DNA of 36,710 bases from Phycisphaerae bacterium (lineage in GTDB: Bacteria > Planctomycetota > Phycisphaerae > SM23-33): NCBI GenBank assembly GCA_011050235.1, contig DRGC01000057.1:1-36710 (forward strand), read 5' to 3'. Of the stretch, positions 2,273 to 23,526 are shown piece by piece. The stretch's first letter is position 1; each line of letters opens with the position of its first letter. The translations under genes were made by a program, and so were the position numbers. The notes beneath the pieces are model-generated. The model was not told where the DNA came from, did not search any database, and saw only the letters and a program-made list of their open reading frames with translations.

Positions 2273-3139
2273 ATGACGATGCACATGCTCAGCTTCGACG
2301 TGGAGGAGTACTTCCAGACCCAGGCCGCCGCCGAGGGCGGTGTGCGCGTCGAGGATTGGGCAACCTACGAGCGGCGGCTGCCGGCGTCGATCGAGAAGGT
2401 CCTGGCCATCCTGGCTGACCAAGATGTGACCGCGACGTTCTTTGTCCTTGGGTGGGTGGCCCGGCACGAGCGGGCCGTCGTCGCGCAGATCGCCGCAGCC
2501 GGGCACGAGATCGCCTCGCACGGGATGACGCATCGAATGCTGGGCGAGCTGACGGCCGATGAGTTCCGCGCCGAACTTCGCGACAGCCGAAAATTGCTGG
2601 AAGATATCTCGGGCAAGCCGGTCGTCGGCTTCCGCGCGCCGACGTTCTCGATTACCCGCCGAACAGCGTGGGCGTTGGACGTGTTGGCCGAAGAGCTGTT
2701 CCGCTACGACTCGTCAATCTTCCCAATCCGTCACGACCGCTACGGCATCCCCGACGCGCCGCGATGGATCCACCGGGCCATCGGGCCGGCCGGCGGGGAG
2801 ATCGTCGAAATTCCGCCGCTGACGGCCCGGGCCTTTGGCGTGAACCTGCCCGTCGGCGGGGGCGGGTACCTGCGTCTGCTGCCGACGTCGCTGATTCGCC
2901 GCGCGATCCGGCGCGCCGAGCGGGCGGGCCAACCGGCCATGATCTACCTGCACCCCTGGGAACTCGACCCCGACCAGCCCGTCCTGCCCATGACCCGCAC
3001 CAGCCGCTTCCGCCACCGCGTGAACCTCAGCCGCACAGAACCCAGACTGCGCGACCTGCTAAGCCGCCACCATTTCTCCACCGTCGCCGCCGCGCTGGCA
3101 CACGCGACCTGTCCGACCACCCACGAATACGCTGCCTGA
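2273..3139 (+). CDS. Polysaccharide deacetylase, exosortase (DUF3473) type
   Basis: This is a NodB-fold carbohydrate esterase of 288 residues that would remove N-acetyl groups from a polysaccharide. The opening MLSFDVEEYFQ supplies the metal-binding D-E pair typical of the PEP-CTERM/XrtA-associated deacetylases. TATFFVLGWVARH follows at about residue 53, the HxxxH metal motif is in EIASHGMTHRML (about 80), and GFRAPTFS (about 120) is the catalytic-base and substrate motif. The C-terminal segment with IYLHPWELDPDQP is characteristic of DUF3473. No signal peptide is visible, as is usual in this subgroup. It ends the GT4-PaaK-deacetylase run. The association with exosortase systems fits the PEP-CTERM protein found further along in this window. 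Confidence 0.9.
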   Translation: MTMHMLSFDVEEYFQTQAAAEGGVRVEDWATYERRLPASIEKVLAILADQDVTATFFVLGWVARHERAVVAQIAAAGHEIASHGMTHRMLGELTADEFRAELRDSRKLLEDISGKPVVGFRAPTFSITRRTAWALDVLAEELFRYDSSIFPIRHDRYGIPDAPRWIHRAIGPAGGEIVEIPPLTARAFGVNLPVGGGGYLRLLPTSLIRRAIRRAERAGQPAMIYLHPWELDPDQPVLPMTRTSRFRHRVNLSRTEPRLRDLLSRHHFSTVAAALAHATCPTTHEYAA

Positions 3140-3163
3140 TCCCCCTGGCAGCAACGGGCCGGA

Positions 3164-3311
3164 AGTTCCAAGAGACAAGATACAAGTTCCAAGAGACAAG
3201 TTCCAAGTTCCAAGATGCAAGAAACAAAGGCTGGCCGCATCGCCGGTGGACGCCCAATAGGGGGGATTCTGTTTCTTGGAACTTGCTTCTTGGAACTTGG
3301 AATTTGCAGAA
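3164..3311. repeat. Inverted repeat built of 7-base AGNNNCA units
   Basis: Starting 25 bases after the deacetylase stop, nine consecutive 7-mers of form AGNNNCA run from 3164 to 3226: AGTTCCA, AGAGACA, AGATACA, AGTTCCA, AGAGACA, AGTTCCA, AGTTCCA, AGATGCA, AGAAACA. After 43 unrelated bases the complementary form TGNNNCT follows from 3270 to 3304 as TGTTTCT, TGGAACT, TGCTTCT, TGGAACT and TGGAATT, then a degenerate TGCAGAA. The two halves can pair as a long imperfect hairpin. The seven-base phase is exact in both arms while the middle three bases vary. The function is unknown. Confidence 0.85.
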
Positions 3312-3349
3312 ATTGTATTTTGGCAGTTGATGTTTTTCTCCCAAAACTC

Positions 3350-3378
3350 TTGACACGCCTGCTGTTGCGCTCTAACAT
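3350..3378 (+). promoter_or_regulatory. Sigma-70-like promoter of the giant surface protein
   Basis: A perfect -35 box TTGACA (3350-3355) is followed by a 17-base spacer and TAACAT (3373-3378, four of six matches to TATAAT). The predicted transcript would start near 3385 and give a leader of about 90 bases before the ATG at 3477. It lies directly downstream of the inverted 7-mer repeat, so the repeat separates this promoter from the upstream polysaccharide operon. Confidence 0.55.
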
Positions 3379-3476: not shown

Positions 3477-6400
3477 ATGAGGGACACGGACAGTTGGGGC
3501 ACACTCCACCGGCCGGCGTTCGAACCGCTCGAACCCCGCCTACTGCTAAACGGCACAATCGAAGGCCAAGTCTGGGAAGACCTCAACGGCAACGGCCTCC
3601 GGGACCCCGGTGAGCTTGGCCTGAACGGCTGGACGGTCGAGTTGGTCGATCAGCTGACGAACACGGTCGTCGATACGCAAGTCACAGCCGACATCGACCT
3701 CGACGCCAGCGGGACCATTGATCCGTTTACCGAGTCCGGCCTCTACACCTTCACCGGCGTTGTCGATGGGACCTATGAAGTCCGTCAGGTCGTTCCGCCC
3801 GATTGGTCGCAAACCGCTCCGGTCTTTGACGCACAGGCATTCGAAGTAGCTGACGGCCGCGTATCGGCCATAGCCATGAACAACGCGGGGGCGTTTGTCG
3901 TTGCCTGGCATGCCCACGGCGACAGAGACGACATCTTCGCTCGTTTCTACAACCCAGACGGTTCGCCTGGGTCCGAACCGTTCATTGTGAACACGGCAAC
4001 CACGGGCCTCCAACGCTATGCGGGTGTTTCGATCAATGATGCAGGCGATTTCGTCGTTACTTGGGCGAGCGTGGAAGAGACGTTCGGGATCTCTGCGCAG
4101 CGCTATTCCGCTGACGGCGCCACAATGGGCAGCGAACTGCAGATCAGCGCCACCGGCATCGACCCCGAGGTCTTCCTTGAGGACGATGGCAGTTTCCTGG
4201 TCTGTTGGTCGGATGAGGATGGGCCACGGGGCCAGTACTTCGACAGTAACGGGGCGGCCAGCGGCGCTGAGTTCGCTCTTCAGATCGACGGAGCAGGTTG
4301 GGTCAATTTCTCGGAAGAGTGGATCGACCAGGCCGATGACGGGACGCTGATTGTGACTTGGCGGGGGCCCGCCGGGGGGGCAAACAGCTGGCATGTTCAA
4401 AGGCTTGCCCCTGATGGTACTTCCCTGGGGACGTCGCTGGAACTGGATACGTATAGTAGCGGGGACACGTTTCCGGAAAGTACGGTGGCCGCCAACGGGG
4501 CTGGGGAATATGTGGTCGTCTGGAAAGACGCGTACAACATGTACGCCCGCTCCTTCGGCCCCGATGGTGTCCTTCGCGGCGAGCACGCCGTGCCAAGTGG
4601 CGGCCGTGCACGGTTCGCCGTGGATATGACAGCTAACGGCCAATTCGTTGTGATTTGGGGCGACTTTGCCGTGGATGACGGCTGGTACCAAACGTTCGCG
4701 CAGTGGTTCGAAGCGGACGCTACGCCTATTGGCGCCGTTTTCGAGGTGAGCGATTGGCCTCGCTGGAGCGGTGGGGATCGAACCGTCGCGGTCAGTGACG
4801 CCGGAAGCATGGTGGCACTATGGGACGGGGACCATCCCGCACAGGACGGAATGATGGCCAGGCGCTACCCGGGCCTTGGGCCCGTGGACGCCTACACTGT
4901 CTCGCTTAGGGACGGTCAACGACTTGTTGACTTGAACTTCGGCGGCTTCGAATTGGGCGTCGTCGAGGGCCAGATCTTCGAGGATCTCAACGTCAATGGC
5001 ATCCGTGATGGAAGCGAGGTCGGGCTCAACGGTTGGACCGTCGAATTGCTCGATATCCAGACGGGGCAGGTTGTGGCCAGCACGACATCGGCTGCTGATG
5101 ATCTGGACGGAGACGGGTCGATCGATCCGGTTACTGAAGCCGGGCTGTATTCATTTACGGGCCTGGCCGGCGGCGACTATCGCATTCGCCAGATTCGTCA
5201 GGTCGGTTACGAACAGACGACGCCTCTGCCAATAGCGGACACATACGAGCATGCCGAGACGGTCTACGAGGTGCCGAGAGATCCGTCGGTACTCGTCGAG
5301 TTTGATTTCCCTGTCGATTTGCTGTCGATGCCGTTGGGGGTTGATGGCGCGACGCTGACTATGGAGTTGGCGTACCGGGACATGTGGCATTGGCATTACC
5401 AACTAAGCGCCGAAGGGCAGGACCTGGGCATTGTGTTTAATGACGTCCTGACCGACGAGATCCACGTCAGTTACGACCTTCTGACGGCATTGGCTGCCGA
5501 CGGTACGATCTCATTCGCTCTGCAGGACACCTACGGGCTTGATCGACACAGAGACTTCATAACGTTGTCGCTGGCGTTTTCCGGCGTGATCAACCCGGCC
5601 CTGCACGATGTCAGCATCGTTAGCGGATCGGTCATTGATACGACCAATTTCGGCCTGGTCTCCACGGATTCGACGATCTCCGGTCAGGTTTTCGAAGACA
5701 CTGACGGCAACGGCGCCCGCGACGGGGGCGAGGTCGGTCTGAACGACTGGCACGTAGACTTGATCGACGTAGGCACGGGCCTGACGGTAGCCCGGGCTAC
5801 AACGGCGGACGAGGATATCGACGGCGACGGCACGATCGACCCGGAGACCGAAGCGGGACGCTATGCCTTCCATCCTGTTCTCCCGGGGACATATGAAGTG
5901 CGGCAAGCCACGCCAACGACGCATCATCAAACACTACCGGGGACCCTATATCAGCTTGTCGTTGGCACGACCGATGACGTGACCGGGATCGACTTCGGAA
6001 GCCAACTTACCCCCGTCGTCATAGACGGCCAGGTCTTCGTGGACGCTAACGTCAACGGACAGCACGACGTCGGCGAGGTCGGCCTGAACGGGGTCACGAT
6101 CGAACTGCTGGACTTCTGGACGAACGCCGTGGTGTCCACGACCGTCACGGGCGACATCGATCTGGACGGTGACGGCGTCATCGATCCGTTGACCGAATCG
6201 GGGCGCTACGAGTTCGCTGGTTTGCTCCCCGAAGACTACCGTGTCCGGCAGGTATTGCTGGGTCCCAACTGGGAGTGGACCGGGCCCTTGCCTGATCTGC
6301 AGATGATGAGCCCGATCAGACGCGTCAGTGATCCTGCCGAGGGCTTGCAGGAAGACCCAGACATCGCGATGGCCGCTGACGGGAGTGTCGTGGTGGTCTG

Positions 6401-9400
6401 GGAAAGCGCCAATGATTCCGGGATGGGTGGCATTTGGGGGCGGGCCCACGACGCCAGTGGCACGCCGGTGGGCAGTCAATTCCCCGTCTATGTCGATCCA
6501 GCCTTCAATGGAGGACAGCCCGGAGTAGCCATGCTCGATACCGGCCGGTTCGTCGTGACTTGGGTCGATAAGGCCGTTGACTCAGATTATGGCATTCGCG
6601 CCAGCGTCTTCGAAGCAGACGGCACGCCTGTCGTTGGACCGTTCCTGGTCAACACACATGTCGATGACACGCAATCATTTCCTGCGATTGCCACTAACGG
6701 CGATCACTTCGTTATCGTATGGCGCCAAGATGGAGCCACCGAGGACGGTGCTTTCGGGCGTGTGTTCGAGTCTGATGGTACGCCCATTAGCGGTGAGTTC
6801 CGCGTCAACGCCGATGCGGGAGAGTACGCCTTTGACTTGTCTGTCGCGATGTTGCCCGACGGCGATTTCATGGCTTCCTGGTGGGAAGACTACTACGATC
6901 GGCGTGCGTACATCCGGGGCTTCAATGCAGATGGCACACCGATCAATGATCCCGTGGAGATCGTCATTCCCGGCCAAAGTGAAGCATCAAGTCCTTCTGT
7001 CATCGCTTCGGGGACGGATTCGTACCGTCTGTTCTGGAACGCGCAGATTTCCGGGGCCTGGTATCACTACACGCAACAGGTCGGAGTCGATGGATTGGTC
7101 CTGGGCGATCCGGCTGACTTCGGCTATGGGCGCAGCGATATTGCTCCTGCAAGCAACGGCGGATTCGCCACATCGAACTCACCCGCGTACGAAGGGGTCG
7201 GGGGTCAGCTCTTCGGCGCTGACGCAGCGCTGGCGAGCAACTTCACCTTTGTGACCGACGTTTATACCCCCCGGCAGCACGTCTCGGCCGTGGGAGTCAA
7301 CGATATGGGGCTCGTGGCGGTCACGTGGCACGAAGGGGAGGAAGACGATCCTGCCAACGGCATCTTTGTCCGATTGGCTGGCGGCGGCCTACAGCCGCGT
7401 GAGACTGTCCTGACGACGACGTGGGGGGACCGGGCAGCGGGTGATTTCGGGAACGTTCTGCCGGGTGACGTAAGCGGCCAGGTGTTCGACGATCTGGACG
7501 GCGACGGGTCTCGCGGGGCCGGGGAGACGGGCCTCAACGACTGGGTGGTTAAGCTGGTGGACGCCGCAACCGGTCAGGTCATCGCCAGTGTGCTGACGGC
7601 CGAGATCGACCTGGACGGTGACGGCAGTATCGATCCCGAGACCGAAGCCGGTCTGTATACCATCGAGACGCTCTGGTCGGGTGATTTTCAGCTTCGAATA
7701 ACGTGGCCGGACGACTATTGGCCAACGGTCCCGGCTGACGGCATTCACACGCTGACACTCCCCCCGGGGGCGTCGCTGAGCGGCTACGATTTCGGCGCCG
7801 TCGAGTTCGCCAGCGTCAGTGGGCAGGTCTACTACGACCTCAACGGCAACGGGCAGCAAGATGGCAGTGAACCCCTGCGTCACGGTTGGCTGGTACAGGT
7901 GCTCGATCCCGACACATGGGAAGTCGTGGCCTTCACTGAAGCCGTGGGAGGCACTTACCAGATCGAGGGCCTGGTACCCGGGGACTATCGACTCGAGCTA
8001 ATGCCCATTGTCGGCTGGGCGATAAGCGAACCTTTGGCCGGCTACTACGACGTGATGCTGTCGATCAGTGAAGATCGGACCGACTTGGACTTTGGCGTCG
8101 AACTCGCCGATGCCCGGATCGCCGGGCAGGTCTTTGGCGACCTCGACGGCAACGGCGTGCGGGATGGGGATGAGGTTGGCATTGACGGGTGGACGGTGGA
8201 GTTGGTCGATCCGGCGACTGGCGGTGTGATTGCTGCGGCCACGACCGCAAGCGAGGACCTCAACGGCGACGGCATCATCGACCCCGCGACCGAACGCGGG
8301 CGCTACCGCTTTGCAGGGCTGGTGCAGGATGACTACGAAGTCCGTCAGGTCGTGCCCGCCGGCTGGCAGCAGACGGCCCCGATGGGTGTGGAGGAGCGGG
8401 CGTTCGCCGCTGAGGTGGTCGGCGGGGCTGTGACAGTCCACGAGTTCGATGTCGCTACCGGGGCGATCCTTAACAGCTTCGCCGGGCCGCAGGCAGTGGC
8501 CATGGCCGGCTATCAGGGCCTGGCCGTCGGGCCGGACAGTCTGTTCTACGTCGACGCCAGCGACTGGTTCACGCCCACGCTGTGGGAGCTGGACCTCGAT
8601 ACAGGCGCGGTGATCGACTCCGACCCGCTGACGTTTGGGGCTATCTATGTCATCAAGGGGCTCGCCTACCTCGACGGGCTGCTTTACATCCAGTACATGC
8701 CCGACCAGGTGGCTGTGTGGGATCCCGCCAGTGATAGTTTCATCCGGACGCTGACGATAGCGGCTGTGGTGACGGGCGGGCTGACGGGCGCGGGTGATCT
8801 GGGTGTGTTGTTCGACAGCAACGCCGCGGGCGAGATCATCGCCATTGACCCGACGGATGGTTCGGTGCTCAGCACCTTCGCCACCGGCCTGGGCGCGCTG
8901 GACGGCGGGTTGGCCTATGTGGGCGGCGAGCTGCTGGCTATCGGTTTGGGTCTCGGCAGTTTGGTCCATCGCATCGACCCGGCCACGGGCGCGGTTCTCG
9001 ATAGCTTTGCTCTCGGCGTAACCGGCAGCATTGTCGGCCTGGGCGGCGACCGGCCGAACCTGCCGGTCCCGGTGAACTACGCGATGTCCCTCGGCCCAAG
9101 TGACGTCGTTGACGGCCGAGACTTCGCCAACCTGGCCCCAGCCGTCGCGGGCGACTTCAACGGCGACGGGCTGGTCGACAGCCTGGACATCGATCTGCTC
9201 TACGCCAACCAGGGCGACGCTGCCTTCGACCTCGACGGCGACGGCGACGCCGACAGCGACGACATGGACGTGCTGATCCACGATATCCTCAACACCGAAT
9301 ACGGCGACATCAATCTCGACGGCCTGGTCGATGGGACCGACCTGGCGATCCTCAAGACCAACTTCGCCTCTCAGGGCGTCGGCTGGTCCGGCGGCGACCT

Positions 9401-10004
9401 CAACGGCAGCGGCCTGGTCGACGTAACGGACCTGTCGATCATGGCCAAGTACTTCGGCTTCGAAAGCCCGGGCGGCGCATTACCCGTCAGCGCAGCGGCC
9501 CTGCTCGCCGGCAGCGACACCCAGGCCGAACCGATCCTGGCCAGCGGCCAGGCGTTGGTCGTGTCCTCGGCGCTGAAGCTCGCGCCAGAGGCCACGTCGA
9601 TGCCGGATGCGCCTCAGCCAGCCGAGCCCGTGACGCTGTCCTCGCCTGGGCTGGCCGCCCCGGAAGCTGCGCCCATGCTGCAAAGCGCGCCGCCACAGCT
9701 TCGCGATGACGTGTTGCCGGCAGTCGCCATCGTCGATAGCCTCGGACGCCCAGCGTGGCCTTGGAACATTATCGCCGATGTTGCGTCGGACCATTCGGTT
9801 CCCGCGCCCCGTGGCCTGCGTTTCGCTCCGGCTGGCCCCCGCAACGGAGACGCCCATCCACACGCCGCGCCCCCCATGGCGGGGATATTGCCGGCCTCCG
9901 CGGGAGACCTTTCGGAGCCCGAGGATGAATTGGACGACATCCTCGCCATCTCATCGATGGACATCAGTCTGACACCCGCCATCGGGAGGTCGTTTCGAGG
10001 CTGA
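3477..10004 (+). CDS. Giant LEPR-motif surface protein with SdrD-B repeats and dockerin-like end
   Basis: This is a 2175-residue secreted or surface protein. AFEPLEPRLLLNG at residues 14-26 is the LEPR-XLL motif found at the start of very large planctomycete and some proteobacterial repeat proteins; it has no ordinary hydrophobic signal peptide. Seven SdrD/SpaA B-like beta-sandwich modules follow, each starting with a calcium-type motif such as GQVWEDLNGNGLRDPGE, near residues 30, 498, 736, 851, 1334, 1449 and 1550. Between them are segments with repeated VVVW/FVVTW strands (about 120-470 and 940-1300) and a third repetitive segment (about 1620-1860), all propeller-like. EF-hand/dockerin repeats (GDFNGDGLVDSLDID, GDINLDGLVDGTDLA, GDLNGSGLVDVTDLS) lie at about 1892-1996. 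A 180-residue Ala/Pro-rich tail ends the protein. The ATG at 3477 has GAAGG seven bases upstream. A structural or adhesive role is inferred. Confidence 0.85.
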   Translation: MRDTDSWGTLHRPAFEPLEPRLLLNGTIEGQVWEDLNGNGLRDPGELGLNGWTVELVDQLTNTVVDTQVTADIDLDASGTIDPFTESGLYTFTGVVDGTYEVRQVVPPDWSQTAPVFDAQAFEVADGRVSAIAMNNAGAFVVAWHAHGDRDDIFARFYNPDGSPGSEPFIVNTATTGLQRYAGVSINDAGDFVVTWASVEETFGISAQRYSADGATMGSELQISATGIDPEVFLEDDGSFLVCWSDEDGPRGQYFDSNGAASGAEFALQIDGAGWVNFSEEWIDQADDGTLIVTWRGPAGGANSWHVQRLAPDGTSLGTSLELDTYSSGDTFPESTVAANGAGEYVVVWKDAYNMYARSFGPDGVLRGEHAVPSGGRARFAVDMTANGQFVVIWGDFAVDDGWYQTFAQWFEADATPIGAVFEVSDWPRWSGGDRTVAVSDAGSMVALWDGDHPAQDGMMARRYPGLGPVDAYTVSLRDGQRLVDLNFGGFELGVVEGQIFEDLNVNGIRDGSEVGLNGWTVELLDIQTGQVVASTTSAADDLDGDGSIDPVTEAGLYSFTGLAGGDYRIRQIRQVGYEQTTPLPIADTYEHAETVYEVPRDPSVLVEFDFPVDLLSMPLGVDGATLTMELAYRDMWHWHYQLSAEGQDLGIVFNDVLTDEIHVSYDLLTALAADGTISFALQDTYGLDRHRDFITLSLAFSGVINPALHDVSIVSGSVIDTTNFGLVSTDSTISGQVFEDTDGNGARDGGEVGLNDWHVDLIDVGTGLTVARATTADEDIDGDGTIDPETEAGRYAFHPVLPGTYEVRQATPTTHHQTLPGTLYQLVVGTTDDVTGIDFGSQLTPVVIDGQVFVDANVNGQHDVGEVGLNGVTIELLDFWTNAVVSTTVTGDIDLDGDGVIDPLTESGRYEFAGLLPEDYRVRQVLLGPNWEWTGPLPDLQMMSPIRRVSDPAEGLQEDPDIAMAADGSVVVVWESANDSGMGGIWGRAHDASGTPVGSQFPVYVDPAFNGGQPGVAMLDTGRFVVTWVDKAVDSDYGIRASVFEADGTPVVGPFLVNTHVDDTQSFPAIATNGDHFVIVWRQDGATEDGAFGRVFESDGTPISGEFRVNADAGEYAFDLSVAMLPDGDFMASWWEDYYDRRAYIRGFNADGTPINDPVEIVIPGQSEASSPSVIASGTDSYRLFWNAQISGAWYHYTQQVGVDGLVLGDPADFGYGRSDIAPASNGGFATSNSPAYEGVGGQLFGADAALASNFTFVTDVYTPRQHVSAVGVNDMGLVAVTWHEGEEDDPANGIFVRLAGGGLQPRETVLTTTWGDRAAGDFGNVLPGDVSGQVFDDLDGDGSRGAGETGLNDWVVKLVDAATGQVIASVLTAEIDLDGDGSIDPETEAGLYTIETLWSGDFQLRITWPDDYWPTVPADGIHTLTLPPGASLSGYDFGAVEFASVSGQVYYDLNGNGQQDGSEPLRHGWLVQVLDPDTWEVVAFTEAVGGTYQIEGLVPGDYRLELMPIVGWAISEPLAGYYDVMLSISEDRTDLDFGVELADARIAGQVFGDLDGNGVRDGDEVGIDGWTVELVDPATGGVIAAATTASEDLNGDGIIDPATERGRYRFAGLVQDDYEVRQVVPAGWQQTAPMGVEERAFAAEVVGGAVTVHEFDVATGAILNSFAGPQAVAMAGYQGLAVGPDSLFYVDASDWFTPTLWELDLDTGAVIDSDPLTFGAIYVIKGLAYLDGLLYIQYMPDQVAVWDPASDSFIRTLTIAAVVTGGLTGAGDLGVLFDSNAAGEIIAIDPTDGSVLSTFATGLGALDGGLAYVGGELLAIGLGLGSLVHRIDPATGAVLDSFALGVTGSIVGLGGDRPNLPVPVNYAMSLGPSDVVDGRDFANLAPAVAGDFNGDGLVDSLDIDLLYANQGDAAFDLDGDGDADSDDMDVLIHDILNTEYGDINLDGLVDGTDLAILKTNFASQGVGWSGGDLNGSGLVDVTDLSIMAKYFGFESPGGALPVSAAALLAGSDTQAEPILASGQALVVSSALKLAPEATSMPDAPQPAEPVTLSSPGLAAPEAAPMLQSAPPQLRDDVLPAVAIVDSLGRPAWPWNIIADVASDHSVPAPRGLRFAPAGPRNGDAHPHAAPPMAGILPASAGDLSEPEDELDDILAISSMDISLTPAIGRSFRG

Positions 10005-10077
10005 GGGCAGCGGCACCTTTCGGCGGCAAGAGCGGCTTGGGGGTTTGCTGGATGGATGACGTGAGCGGCCGGCGCAA

Positions 10078-10111
10078 GAAGAACGCCGCCCCGCGAAGGG
10101 CGGCGTTCTTG
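10078..10111. terminator. Rho-independent-type hairpin after cspA (possibly bidirectional)
   Basis: The arms AAGAACGCCGCCC (10079-10091) and GGGCGGCGTTCTT (10098-10110) form a perfect 13-bp stem with a six-base loop. It sits 18 bases beyond the minus-strand cold-shock gene stop and about 75 bases beyond the plus-strand giant gene stop. The two genes converge here, so it could serve both. The T-tract is short (TTCTTCTTG) on the cspA strand. Confidence 0.7.
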
Positions 10112-10128
10112 ATTCACATCCAAGCAGG

Positions 10129-10329
10129 TTAGACCTTGCGGACGTTGATGGCCTTGGGGCCCTTGGGCCCTTCGGTCAGTTCGAACTCCACAGTCTCGCC
10201 TTCGGTGAGCGACTTGAAGCCTTCGCCCTGGATGTCGGCGTGATGAACGAACGCGTCCGTGCCGTCATCGGTCGTGATAAACCCAAAACCCTTGGAATCG
10301 TTGAACCACTTCACTTTACCTGTTGCCAT
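10129..10329 (-). CDS. Cold-shock-domain RNA chaperone (CspA family)
   Basis: This is a 66-residue single cold-shock domain protein that binds single-stranded RNA or DNA and melts RNA secondary structure. RNP1 is present as KGFGFIT (residues 14-20) and RNP2 as DAFVHH (about 27-32). The N-terminus [17 protein letters not shown] is typical. I chose the ATG at 10329-10327 because AAGGAG lies eight bases before it and family homology begins there. A longer in-frame start at 10380 would add 17 residues without family similarity. A strong hairpin follows the stop. Bacteria usually carry several copies, so the specific paralogue name is not assigned. Confidence 0.95.
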
Positions 10330-10853
10330 TGTTATGGCTCCTTGAGAGATCAGCACACTAGATTCGCCAGCGTCATCCAAGCCGACTCATCCGCTGCAGT
10401 GAAGTGGTAAACACTCCCGAGATGCGGTAAACCTGGGTGCAAGCTGCAAACGAACAGCGATGCTAACCGTGCTTGCTGGCGGCCATGAGAGAACTCCTCT
10501 CACCCCCGTCAGCCCTAATTTGCCTAATTTTCCCGTCGGCCCTTACGGAAGTCAAAGGAAATTATGGAAATATCCCCAGCCCTGACTTTGGACTGCCCGC
10601 CCTTCCCCCGCGGCGCGCACGCTTGCATCAGGCCGGGCGATCCGATACACTATTGGGCTCTCATGATGATGCGGACTCACACATCCGGTCTGGGCGTCTT
10701 TGGGAGGCTCTTCACGAGCCTGCTGCGGACGCTGCGCGCCGTTCATTGGCCTGCTGCTGCGGCCTGACCTCTGCGGCTGACCCCGGGCCTTGCGGCTGGG
10801 GCGCCGACACCACCTGACCCCATCGATGCAAAAGGGGCCTCCCGGAGTATCCT
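10330..10853. other. Divergent intergenic region between cspA-type gene and typA
   Basis: These 524 bases contain no convincing gene; the short open frames have no recognisable family features. A direct repeat of GGTAAAC occurs at 10406-10412 and 10426-10432, a start-to-start spacing of 20 bases. It would lie in or near the leader of the cold-shock gene and could be an operator or RNA element. A small hairpin, AGGCTC/GAGCCT, is at 10705-10721. No clear typA promoter was identified. Confidence 0.5.
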
Positions 10854-13699: not shown

Positions 13700-14006
13700 G
13701 GGCCGGTCTCCTTATCACTCCCGCAAGCATACCCGCAGCGGGGCCGGGCGGGCAATCGCATCTCAAGGCTTGTGGGGCGCCCGGCCGAATCATCCACAGT
13801 TCCGGAGGGACGACCAGACGTTAGCCGGGCCCGTGAGGGCCCGGTGGGCGAGCTCGCAATTGGGCAGAGCCCCGGCGGGGCGATAGAGGGAATCTCATTC
13901 GGCCCAGCCCCCGGTTCCCGGATCCTTTTTCGGTGGGGGCCGGGCCAAGGCTGCGGTATGCTTTGTACGGCAGTCGCGCAGCACGCGGCCGTAAGAGGAA
14001 TCACGG
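13700..14006. other. Gene-free divergent region with GC hairpin
   Basis: No coding region is supported in these 307 bases. A perfect 8-bp stem, CCGGGCCC/GGGCCCGG with loop GTGA, lies at 13826-13845. It has no T-tract and could be a regulatory or REP-like element. AGAGGA before 14007 is the ribosome-binding site of the next gene. Confidence 0.5.
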
Positions 14007-14729: not shown

Positions 14730-14757
14730 ATTGCCGATTGCGGATTGCCGAATGCGC
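14730..14757. repeat. 7-base ATTGNCG-type array
   Basis: Four successive 7-mers, ATTGCCG, ATTGCGG, ATTGCCG and AATGCGC, start ten bases after the membrane protein stop. The lead-in GAGGCAGAGC is shared with the array at 16704, where it is again followed by an ATTG unit. A related trace, GATTGAACTG, is at 14809. Confidence 0.75.
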
Positions 14758-16687: not shown

Positions 16688-16703
16688 GGTTTGAGGCAGA
16701 GCG

Positions 16704-16731
16704 ATTGTCGAATGCCGATTGCCGATTGAAC
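16704..16731. repeat. 7-base ATTGNCG-type array after phosphatase gene
   Basis: Four successive 7-mers, ATTGTCG, AATGCCG, ATTGCCG and ATTGAAC, begin 17 bases after the phosphatase stop. The array is preceded by TTTGAGGCAGAGCG, matching the lead-in of the array at 14730, and followed by TGCAGAAACGGCGAGC. Confidence 0.75.
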
Positions 16732-21556: not shown

Positions 21557-21613
21557 CTAGGCAGGCTTGCGCCTGTGCCTTCGCAGCATCGTCAGCCCGC
21601 CCAGGGCCAGCCC
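21557..21613 (-). pseudogene. Orphan PEP-CTERM-like membrane tail
   Basis: Just beyond the stop of the PEP-CTERM gene, in another frame, the minus strand reads GLALGGLTMLRRHRRKPA followed by a TAG stop. A glycine/leucine-rich helix followed by a basic cluster and stop is the classic end of a PEP-CTERM or similar sorting signal. The preceding VPEP box is absent, so this seems to be the end of a lost second anchor or a former read-through end of the present gene after a frameshift. Confidence 0.45.
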
Positions 21614-21617
21614 CGAG

Positions 21618-22754
21618 TTACGCTCGGGACTTCCGCTTGCGCTTCAGCAATAGAGGAAGGCCTGCGGCCGCCATGACGAGAAGCGTGGCCGGTTCGGGGA
21701 CTTCGCCGAGGCGGAACCCGCGGGCGAGGTGCTCGTCCGCCGGGTTGCCGGTGCCGCGGTACGACGCGTGCATGTTGTCGTCGATGACGCTGTAATCCCC
21801 GCCCCGCCGACCGCGAGACAGCCACGACTCGGAAGGGATCCCCTCGTTCCACTCTTGGACGTTGCCGCCCATGTCGAACGTGCCGTAGGGACTGTCGGAG
21901 TTCTCAAACTCGCCGACCTCCGTCCGATAGTAGGGATGGCCGGTCGCCCATTTTATGCCCCCGTCAGGTGTGCCGTAGAAGTTGGCGCTGTTCCCCGGAT
22001 CGGGATCAATCACATCGTTGCTGGGCGTGCTATCCCAGCCCATGGGATAATCGTAGTATACGCCGCTATCTCCGTCGTAGTAGGCAGCCTTGTACCATTC
22101 ATGCTCTGTGGGAATCACATACCGGGCGTCCGCCTCGCGCGTTACGGCCATAAGCGCCTGACGCAGGGCATCGTAATCCGGGGTGCCTTGTGCAGGGATC
22201 CCTCCATCCGCATCGTAATATGCCTGCGTACCGGAAAGGTCATACGATCCATCCTCTGTCGTCGCCGCGCCCTGCACACCGGTCGGCATGCCGTTAGTCA
22301 GCCAGTTGGCGAAACGGGCCGAATCGCCCCAACTCACCCAGTTGACCGGACGGTCCTCCCAGTCGGTGGCCACGGAGTAGGTGTAGCTGCCCGATGAACC
22401 GGTCCGCTGGATATTGCAGCCCCACCAGCCCGAAGGGTCACCCATGTCGGTGTTGTACAGGCCATACGTGTCAGTGTCGGCCACCGCATTGAGGAACTCG
22501 GTGTACTGACCGGTGGTGACCTCGAACTTGCCGATGTTGTAGGCGTAGTCCACACCGCCGACGATCCCATCCGGCCCGTGGCCGGTGCCGGAGAGTTCTC
22601 CTGCATTGCCGACATCGCCCACGTTCATGAACGGCATGTTCATCGTCGTGGCGAAGTCCACCACGGTGTCGCCGGACAGGTCCGCGCGAATGCCGGCTTG
22701 GGCCAGGCCCACAGATACGACGAGAACGGTTGCTGCGATAATAGAGCTTCTCAT
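21618..22754 (-). CDS. Exported SUMF1/FGE-like domain protein with PEP-CTERM anchor
   Basis: The 378-residue product starts with a signal peptide (MRSSIIAATVLVVSVGLAQA, cut after residue 20). The formylglycine-generating-enzyme-like fold shows YNIGKFEVTTGQYTEFLNAV, PVNWVSWGDSARFANWL, RYVIPTEHEWYKAAYY, YGTFDMGGNVQEWNE and RGFRLGEV. The paired catalytic cysteines of true FGE are not visible near the end of the domain. It is therefore probably a non-catalytic, carbohydrate- or surface-associated member. The C-terminus VPEPATLLVMAAAGLPLLL, then KRKRK, is a complete PEP-CTERM signal for exosortase sorting. I chose ATG 22754 because it opens the signal peptide and has AAGGGA upstream; an in-frame start at 22838 would bury it. 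It is unlikely to mature the sulfatase at 26866, which lacks an export signal. Confidence 0.88.
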   Translation of the reverse strand: MRSSIIAATVLVVSVGLAQAGIRADLSGDTVVDFATTMNMPFMNVGDVGNAGELSGTGHGPDGIVGGVDYAYNIGKFEVTTGQYTEFLNAVADTDTYGLYNTDMGDPSGWWGCNIQRTGSSGSYTYSVATDWEDRPVNWVSWGDSARFANWLTNGMPTGVQGAATTEDGSYDLSGTQAYYDADGGIPAQGTPDYDALRQALMAVTREADARYVIPTEHEWYKAAYYDGDSGVYYDYPMGWDSTPSNDVIDPDPGNSANFYGTPDGGIKWATGHPYYRTEVGEFENSDSPYGTFDMGGNVQEWNEGIPSESWLSRGRRGGDYSVIDDNMHASYRGTGNPADEHLARGFRLGEVPEPATLLVMAAAGLPLLLKRKRKSRA

Positions 22755-23065: not shown

Positions 23066-23072
23066 CGATCGG

Positions 23073-23126
23073 ATTGTCGAATGTCGAATGCCGATTGTCG
23101 ATTGAACCGCAAACCTCAGACCTCAA
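23073..23126. repeat. 7-base array of two families
   Basis: ATTGTCG, AATGTCG, AATGCCG, ATTGTCG and ATTGAAC run from 23073 to 23107. After five bases ACCTCAG and ACCTCAA follow (23113-23126). The first family matches the arrays at 14730 and 16704; the second matches the array at 23483. Confidence 0.75.
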
Positions 23127-23138
23127 GTCGCGGATGTC

Positions 23139-23169
23139 GCTTGAGCCCTTCGATGTACTCAGGACGAGC
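23139..23169. repeat. REP-like dispersed element
   Basis: The segment containing GCTTGAGCCCTTCGA and ACTCAGGACGAGC resembles an interspersed palindromic repeat that I recall from many environmental bacterial genomes (CTTCGACAAGCTCAGGACGA type). This is recognition from memory, not a search. No gene is supported from 23170 to 23386. Confidence 0.4.
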
Positions 23170-23386
23170 ACGCGTGGTGAGACATGCTGGTTTTTCGGGC
23201 GTAAGTGGTGCGGCTGCGTTGGGGGTATTGGGAGAATGGGCCACTTTCAGCGGTTTTCGGCAAAAGATTCGGGGCGGGAATTCTGATGAAATCGGGGCGG
23301 CTGTAGGTGATGGTGCGGCCGTGGGTTGGGGGGGCGATGAGGGTTACATGGCGGTGAATGAGGCGCGCGATTTGTGTGCTGCGAAA

Positions 23387-23517
23387 AGGTTTGAGGTTTG
23401 AGGGGTGAGGTTTGGGGAGAGCGGTTTTCGATTTTCGGACCTGCCTGTCCGGCAGGCAGGTTGCGGATTGAGAAGAAGTAGACCTCAAGTCTCAAGCCTC
23501 AGGCCTCACGCCTCACG
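23387..23517. repeat. Composite inverted element: 7-base arrays around a palindrome
   Basis: Left arm: AGGTTTG, AGGTTTG, AGGGGTG, AGGTTTG, GGGAGAG, CGGTTTT, CGATTTT (23387-23435). Centre: a 9-bp stem, ACCTGCCTG/CAGGCAGGT, with loop TCCGG (23439-23461), then TTGCGGATTG. Right arm: CCTCAAG, TCTCAAG, CCTCAGG, CCTCACG, CCTCACG (23483-23517), which is the reverse-complement family of the left arm. The right arm ends nine bases from the recQ stop codon on the minus strand, so the whole could fold at the 3' end of the recQ transcript. Confidence 0.8.
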
Positions 23518-23526
23518 CCGATGGCG

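Follow-up and report, generated by a model that had tools for sequence, protein, structure and literature searches.

The element between the end of a polysaccharide operon and the promoter of a giant-protein gene belongs to a genome-wide class in which two mirrored arrays of 7-nt units form the arms. We favour, at roughly even confidence, a reading from sequence in which it is a gene-end hairpin that tolerates 7-nt slippage and probably marks or protects the end of the operon's transcript. The window, meaning the whole 36,710-nt stretch analysed, is one contig (C57) of a 4.01-Mb genome in 98 contigs (G000), and its genes were called with our own script based on codon usage. The element and its neighbours are laid out as follows.

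Positions 1-891: upstream glycosyltransferase gene, on the polysaccharide operon side of the element
Positions 888-2255: upstream gene between the glycosyltransferase and deacetylase genes
Positions 2273-3139, plus strand: XrtA-system polysaccharide deacetylase, final gene of the polysaccharide operon (TIGR03006, 315.8 bits, cut-off 276.2; DUF3473 and Polysacc_deac_1)
Positions 3163-3227, plus strand: left arm, nine AAGNNNC heptamers with centres TTC, AGA, ATA, TTC, AGA, TTC, TTC, ATG and AAA
Positions 3227/3228-3269, no strand: loop or central segment of about 42-43 nt, GC-rich, T-run absent
Positions 3270-3306, minus strand: right arm, about five inverted CTTG-type heptamers, with several 7-nt pairing registers to the left arm
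Positions 3350-3378, plus strand: sigma-70-like promoter TTGACA-17-TAACAT, a sequence match with 27 of 29 positions the same in the paralogue on contig C22
Positions 3477-10004, plus strand: gene for a giant 2,175-aa extracellular-type protein with seven SdrD_B stretches and a dockerin match (paralogue G000:C22:37097-44365)

The whole element (3163-3306) begins 23 nt past the deacetylase stop codon and ends 43 nt before the promoter-like site; the flanking operon end and perfect TTGACA box are those that the original prediction had named. Its count of nine AGNNNCA units in the left arm was correct, all of them exact (starts 3164, 3171, 3178, 3185, 3192, 3199, 3206, 3213 and 3220), and three consecutive AGNNNCA units matched nine times in the window, compared with a mean of 0.00 over 100 dinucleotide shuffles. 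Six TGNNNCT-type units had been counted on the right, where four are exact (3270, 3277, 3284 and 3291) and the fifth and sixth (TGGAATT and TGCAGAA) are imperfect. The arms lie 43 bases apart (3227-3269), as predicted, and their pairing is indeed partial and variable, with complementarity in several 7-nt registers (81% over 36 nt, 84% over 32 nt and 92% over 25 nt). Folded as RNA, positions 3140-3340 reached -75.9 kcal/mol (z = -4.30), and none of 200 shuffled sequences did equally well, which answers the proposed comparison of folding energies in favour of a structure.

A terminator had been among the suggested roles. Position and fold do support a gene-end structure, but a terminator-site scan of 3163-3349 found no Rho-independent terminator with its compact GC stem and trailing T-run, and the element had no match in Rfam at gathering thresholds. 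Because the T-run is absent, classical intrinsic termination is less likely here; the likelier role would be to protect or process the 3' end and to hinder read-through to the giant-gene promoter.

Several other features of the window were recorded along the way. An intergenic stretch at 23072-23519 carries heptad arrays with differing units (GATTGTC, AACCTCA, AGGTTTG and CCTCAAG), some of them opposed about 260 nt apart, and CGATTGC-type arrays with no mirrored partner lie at 14730-14755 and 16702-16728, 9 and 14 nt past stop codons. About 500 bp at 10069-10567, surrounding a small gene predicted on the minus strand (10129-10380), recur at G000:C2:103123-103625 with 91% identity, and 105 bp at 21597-21701 share 93% identity with G000:C22:83883-83987. 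The minus strand of this last stretch reads VPEPAT... close to a gene end, which we take to resemble a PEP-CTERM sorting signal and which fits the XrtA-type deacetylase in the window. Positions 13798-13844 match the Rfam Acido-Lenti-1 RNA (38.3 bits, cut-off 37).

A search of the genome for copies with the same centre returned a single further place matching most of the element, C22:36842-37000, behind a gene that we take from its sequence to be thiC and before the giant-gene paralogue. Similarity between the two places extends leftward as far as the C22 element's left edge and rightward through the promoter, leader and first codons of the giant gene (89% over 427 columns), so the C22 copy is a segmental duplication. 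Relative to the window element, its left arm is 21 nt shorter and its right side 14 nt longer (net), both multiples of 7: the arms vary by whole units and the fold is kept (predicted energies -59.5 for the C22 copy and -61.0 for the window element). A mobile palindrome had also been suggested and, as a REPIN- or MITE-like element inserting behind genes, finds no support in the source genome. The sole close copy lies inside the duplicated segment, and the window element's loop is common only to that paralogous copy. Among the loops of 15 own-genome elements, the best pair (window and C22_15000) reached p = 5e-4, a Bonferroni value of 0.1 over 210 tests. A mobile family defined by shared loops was not supported, the apparent loop sharing among same-unit elements having failed those 210 tests. 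The mirrored CAAG pattern described below also had no match in plasmid records and occurred in only 9 stretches among 2.9 million viral contigs, and we consider mobility unlikely, though observations in Pseudomonas that favour it are given below.

Tandem arrays between genes have a preferred period. In a 700,028-bp sample of the genome, 28 intergenic arrays had period 7, with three of period 6, five of period 9, four of period 12 and none of periods 4, 5, 8, 10, 11 or 13; as the sample includes contigs picked for holding hits (C2, C22, C30, C93, C47, C48 and the window), its array densities are biased upward and the comparison among periods less so. A same-family genome (G008; 385,992 bp) held 57 arrays of period 7 and 0-9 of each other period, shuffled sequence gave 1-3 arrays, and arrays holding N were dropped throughout the scan. 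Other members of the class vary: with the threshold unchanged, 80-kb samples of two of them (G039 and G066) had none. In addition, 300,000 bp of E. coli K-12 (55,434 intergenic) had no arrays of periods 4-13. With flanks of at least 150 nt required, 28 of 28 own-genome and 54 of 57 G008 intergenic arrays could be examined for a partner: an inverted one lay within 200 nt in 18 of 28 and 28 of 54, respectively (flank-swap null 3.8% and 3.3%), and a direct second copy lay nearby in 0 of 28 and 1 of 54. The arrays could be a neutral by-product, made at gene ends by fold-back copying and by slippage in 7-nt steps, functionless and persisting where coding sequence and promoters are unharmed. This serious rival, to which we assign a substantial minority of our belief, leaves unexplained, when taken alone, the nearly constant choice of an inverted over a direct partner.

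Unit words differ among the elements (CAAGNNN, GAAAGCT, CGGATTG or CGATTGC, AATGNCC and others). In this genome, variable centres were shared more between the two arms of an element (0.56) than between arms of different elements (0.31), a value equalled or exceeded in 98 of 5,040 permutations. Unit order agreed between arms better than in unit-shuffled controls in only 2 of 15 family elements and in 0 of 20 in a wider set.

The position of the arrays is biased as well. Within co-directional gaps, 16 of 19 arrays in the window's genome and 24 of 32 in G008 were closer to the upstream stop than to the following start, and 12 of 19 (4.0 at random) and 18 of 32 (11.5 at random) lay within 30 nt of the stop. 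Ten of 12 mirrored elements examined in the window's genome are no more than 30 nt from a stop codon; the exceptions are C22:54014, between divergent genes, and one on C21 at least 91 nt from both stops.

Mirrored heptads extend across phyla. We scanned genomes from 84,980 species for a pattern in which three CAAG heptads are opposed by three CTTG heptads; the pattern fixes the CAAG tetrads, and at least 118 stretches carried it. The 80 loci analysed include Pseudomonas (34 loci, by record title), Thiobacillus, Flavobacterium, Mucilaginibacter, Hymenobacter, acidobacteria, Hyella and one planctomycete. They held 81 elements, five in predicted genes, nine without a neighbour on one side and 67 that could be placed: 43 in co-directional, 18 in convergent and 6 in divergent gaps. 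Of 79 distances to a stop codon in these 80 loci, 70 were 30 nt or less. The 18 convergent and 6 divergent elements compare with 30 convergent and 55 divergent other gaps (Fisher p = 8.7e-4); placement counts were repeated with ATG/GTG starts, as predicted gene starts extend into CTTG units when TTG is allowed. Several elements reach from one stop codon to the other across a convergent gap, and the filling of many such gaps is again left unexplained by a neutral by-product alone, although avoidance of promoters would likewise deplete divergent gaps.

The loops of these elements differ by lineage. An A-tract/GC...GC/T-tract signature, defined after the Pseudomonas loops had been seen, was present in 27 of the 35 loops from Pseudomonas (shuffled mean 6.0, maximum 12) and in 10 of 46 others (shuffled mean 5.6, maximum 12), and by their sequence most Pseudomonas loops look like bidirectional terminators. 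The loop of one further genome (G088, locus L010) has a GC stem and then T6 within a few bases. Taken together, position at the stop codon, presence in convergent gaps and, in Pseudomonas, a terminator-like core suggest a role at the transcript end.

Copy number and polarity bear on two alternatives. Genomes of the P. putida group held 18, 85, 11, 10 and 4 overlapping matches, which count matches and not elements, and this abundance favours a mobile palindrome. (In P. putida HAI-2, the genome behind locus L191, the two-unit mirrored CAAG pattern had 138 overlapping matches.) Counted in the same way, five genomes found by way of P. putida-group and related loci had 333 inward matches and 1 outward, compared with 20 inward and 13 outward in 15 genomes from the class of the window, so polarity follows unit and lineage. 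Such near-absolute polarity would suit a protein-binding array, in which a candidate DNA or RNA reader recognizes CAAG at seven-base spacing, and so would the centres of Pseudomonas arms, which are unmatched between arms (0.193 for an element's own arms and 0.273 for those of others). We nevertheless find a dedicated reader very improbable: units are unrelated across elements and genomes (GAAAGCT, CGGATTG and AATGNCC), and the constancy of CAAG tetrads was set by the search pattern.

Pairing itself gave little sign of constraint. In co-directional elements, G.U accounted for 40 arm mismatches and A.C for 35, counts that are not independent between units; as G.U was not commoner, nothing here indicates that RNA pairing is under selection, and the missing wobble excess is in keeping with a neutral by-product. 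Turnover is rapid. At one gap carrying heptads in P. mosselii, for which 30 loci were compared, one of them without a frame, and 28 were readable besides the query's own, none of the 28 relatives had a period-7 array; other palindromes or short stems stood there instead, and in some relatives these are palindrome pairs that we presume to be REPIN-like. The absence of arrays from these 28 orthologous gaps again suits the neutral account, and heptads in one species with REPIN-like pairs in others would also suit a mobile palindrome. Behind thiC in the window's family, a period-7 array occurred in the next 260 nt for 6 of the 24 full-length genes counted (matches in 32 genomes yielded 30 loci, less one with no stop in reach, one with N behind the stop and four ending early); two arrays were mirrored and all units were different, which likewise favours a neutral by-product. 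Given the replacement at the Pseudomonas gap and the differing thiC arrays, the class recurs at gene ends while single elements appear short-lived. At one thiC locus (L174, genome G002), a mirrored GAGTGAC-type heptad element starts right at the stop codon TGA.

The gene-end hairpin that we favour could form and act as follows. Starting from an older gene-end hairpin, slippage and fold-back copying would lengthen the arms in 7-nt steps, with a terminator-like core perhaps retained inside the arms in Pseudomonas and in genome G088. Read-through RNA of the polysaccharide operon would then fold into a long hairpin just past the stop codon, which may mark, end or protect the transcript's 3' end ahead of the giant-gene promoter. 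Because the units share CAAG, loss or gain of a unit in either arm would still leave a pairing register, so that the structure may survive the slippage that makes it. In silico, cutting 7, 14 or 21 nt of the inner left arm cost 0.5 to 3.7 kcal/mol, compared with 16 to 32 kcal/mol for non-periodic hairpins, a tolerance helped by the left arm's spare units. We put forward only tentatively the wider proposition of a phylum-spanning gene-end class in which unit sequence is free, varying by lineage and even by gene, and in which step, inversion and place would be set by a 7-nt DNA process seeded at gene-end hairpins such as terminators.

Several known systems resemble these elements in part. Cyanobacterial STRR heptamers are short tandem heptamers between genes, with defined units. 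Bidirectional intrinsic terminators likewise occur just past stop codons and in convergent gaps; unlike them, the window element has no T-run and a much longer stem and loop. REP/REPIN elements are extragenic hairpins with conserved sequence and a GTAG tag (PMC3733652). The window element is likewise an extragenic hairpin, and similar-looking palindromes occupy the same Pseudomonas gap, but it has no common core and no GTAG tag (none at 3163-3306). By sequence, then, our elements fall outside both REP elements and intrinsic terminators. The TAACTGA heptamers of Beggiatoaceae, according to PMC4679880, are also intergenic in many sets per genome; they have one fixed unit in direct repeats, with one indirect repeat, mostly just upstream of start codons, and so differ from the window element in unit and position. 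Two further reports describe a bacterial enrichment of perfect inverted repeats after stop codons, in passages that do not deal with heptad arms (PMC13155455), and bacterial satellites derived from heptamers (PMC6749651). Searches of an open full-text library listed no paper on mirrored heptads in planctomycetes or Pseudomonas, judged by title and the opening of the abstract.

The closest known system is the inverted GGGAATC heptamers of Xanthomonas (Rehm et al. 2015, PMC4692102). These are heterogeneous (GGGANTN)n arrays, intergenic, on average 28 nt from the 3' end of the upstream open reading frame, with 70 and 75 inverted pairs in two genomes; the authors report no regulatory role and cite the idea that the heptamer step is the DNA segment held by polymerase. 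Common to both are tandem 7-nt units, close inverted pairs and a position nearer the end of the 5' neighbour than the next start. Our elements differ in that the window unit is AAGNNNC and not the G-rich GGGANTN, that several unrelated units occur within one genome and that Pseudomonas loops are terminator-like. Since the traits are common and the G-rich unit is absent, we class the present elements, from their sequence, as a variant of that kind outside the GGGAATC family. As units here are not G-rich, a G-quadruplex cannot be the general reason for such arrays. The bacterial excess of heptamers is known and is given no settled explanation in that report (PMC4692102); that unrelated units, not rich in G, show an identical step, inverted layout and gene-end position separates a common cause from the G-quadruplex proposal. 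Strains of the P. putida group, rich in these elements, would make both their formation and a function at the transcript end testable in culture.
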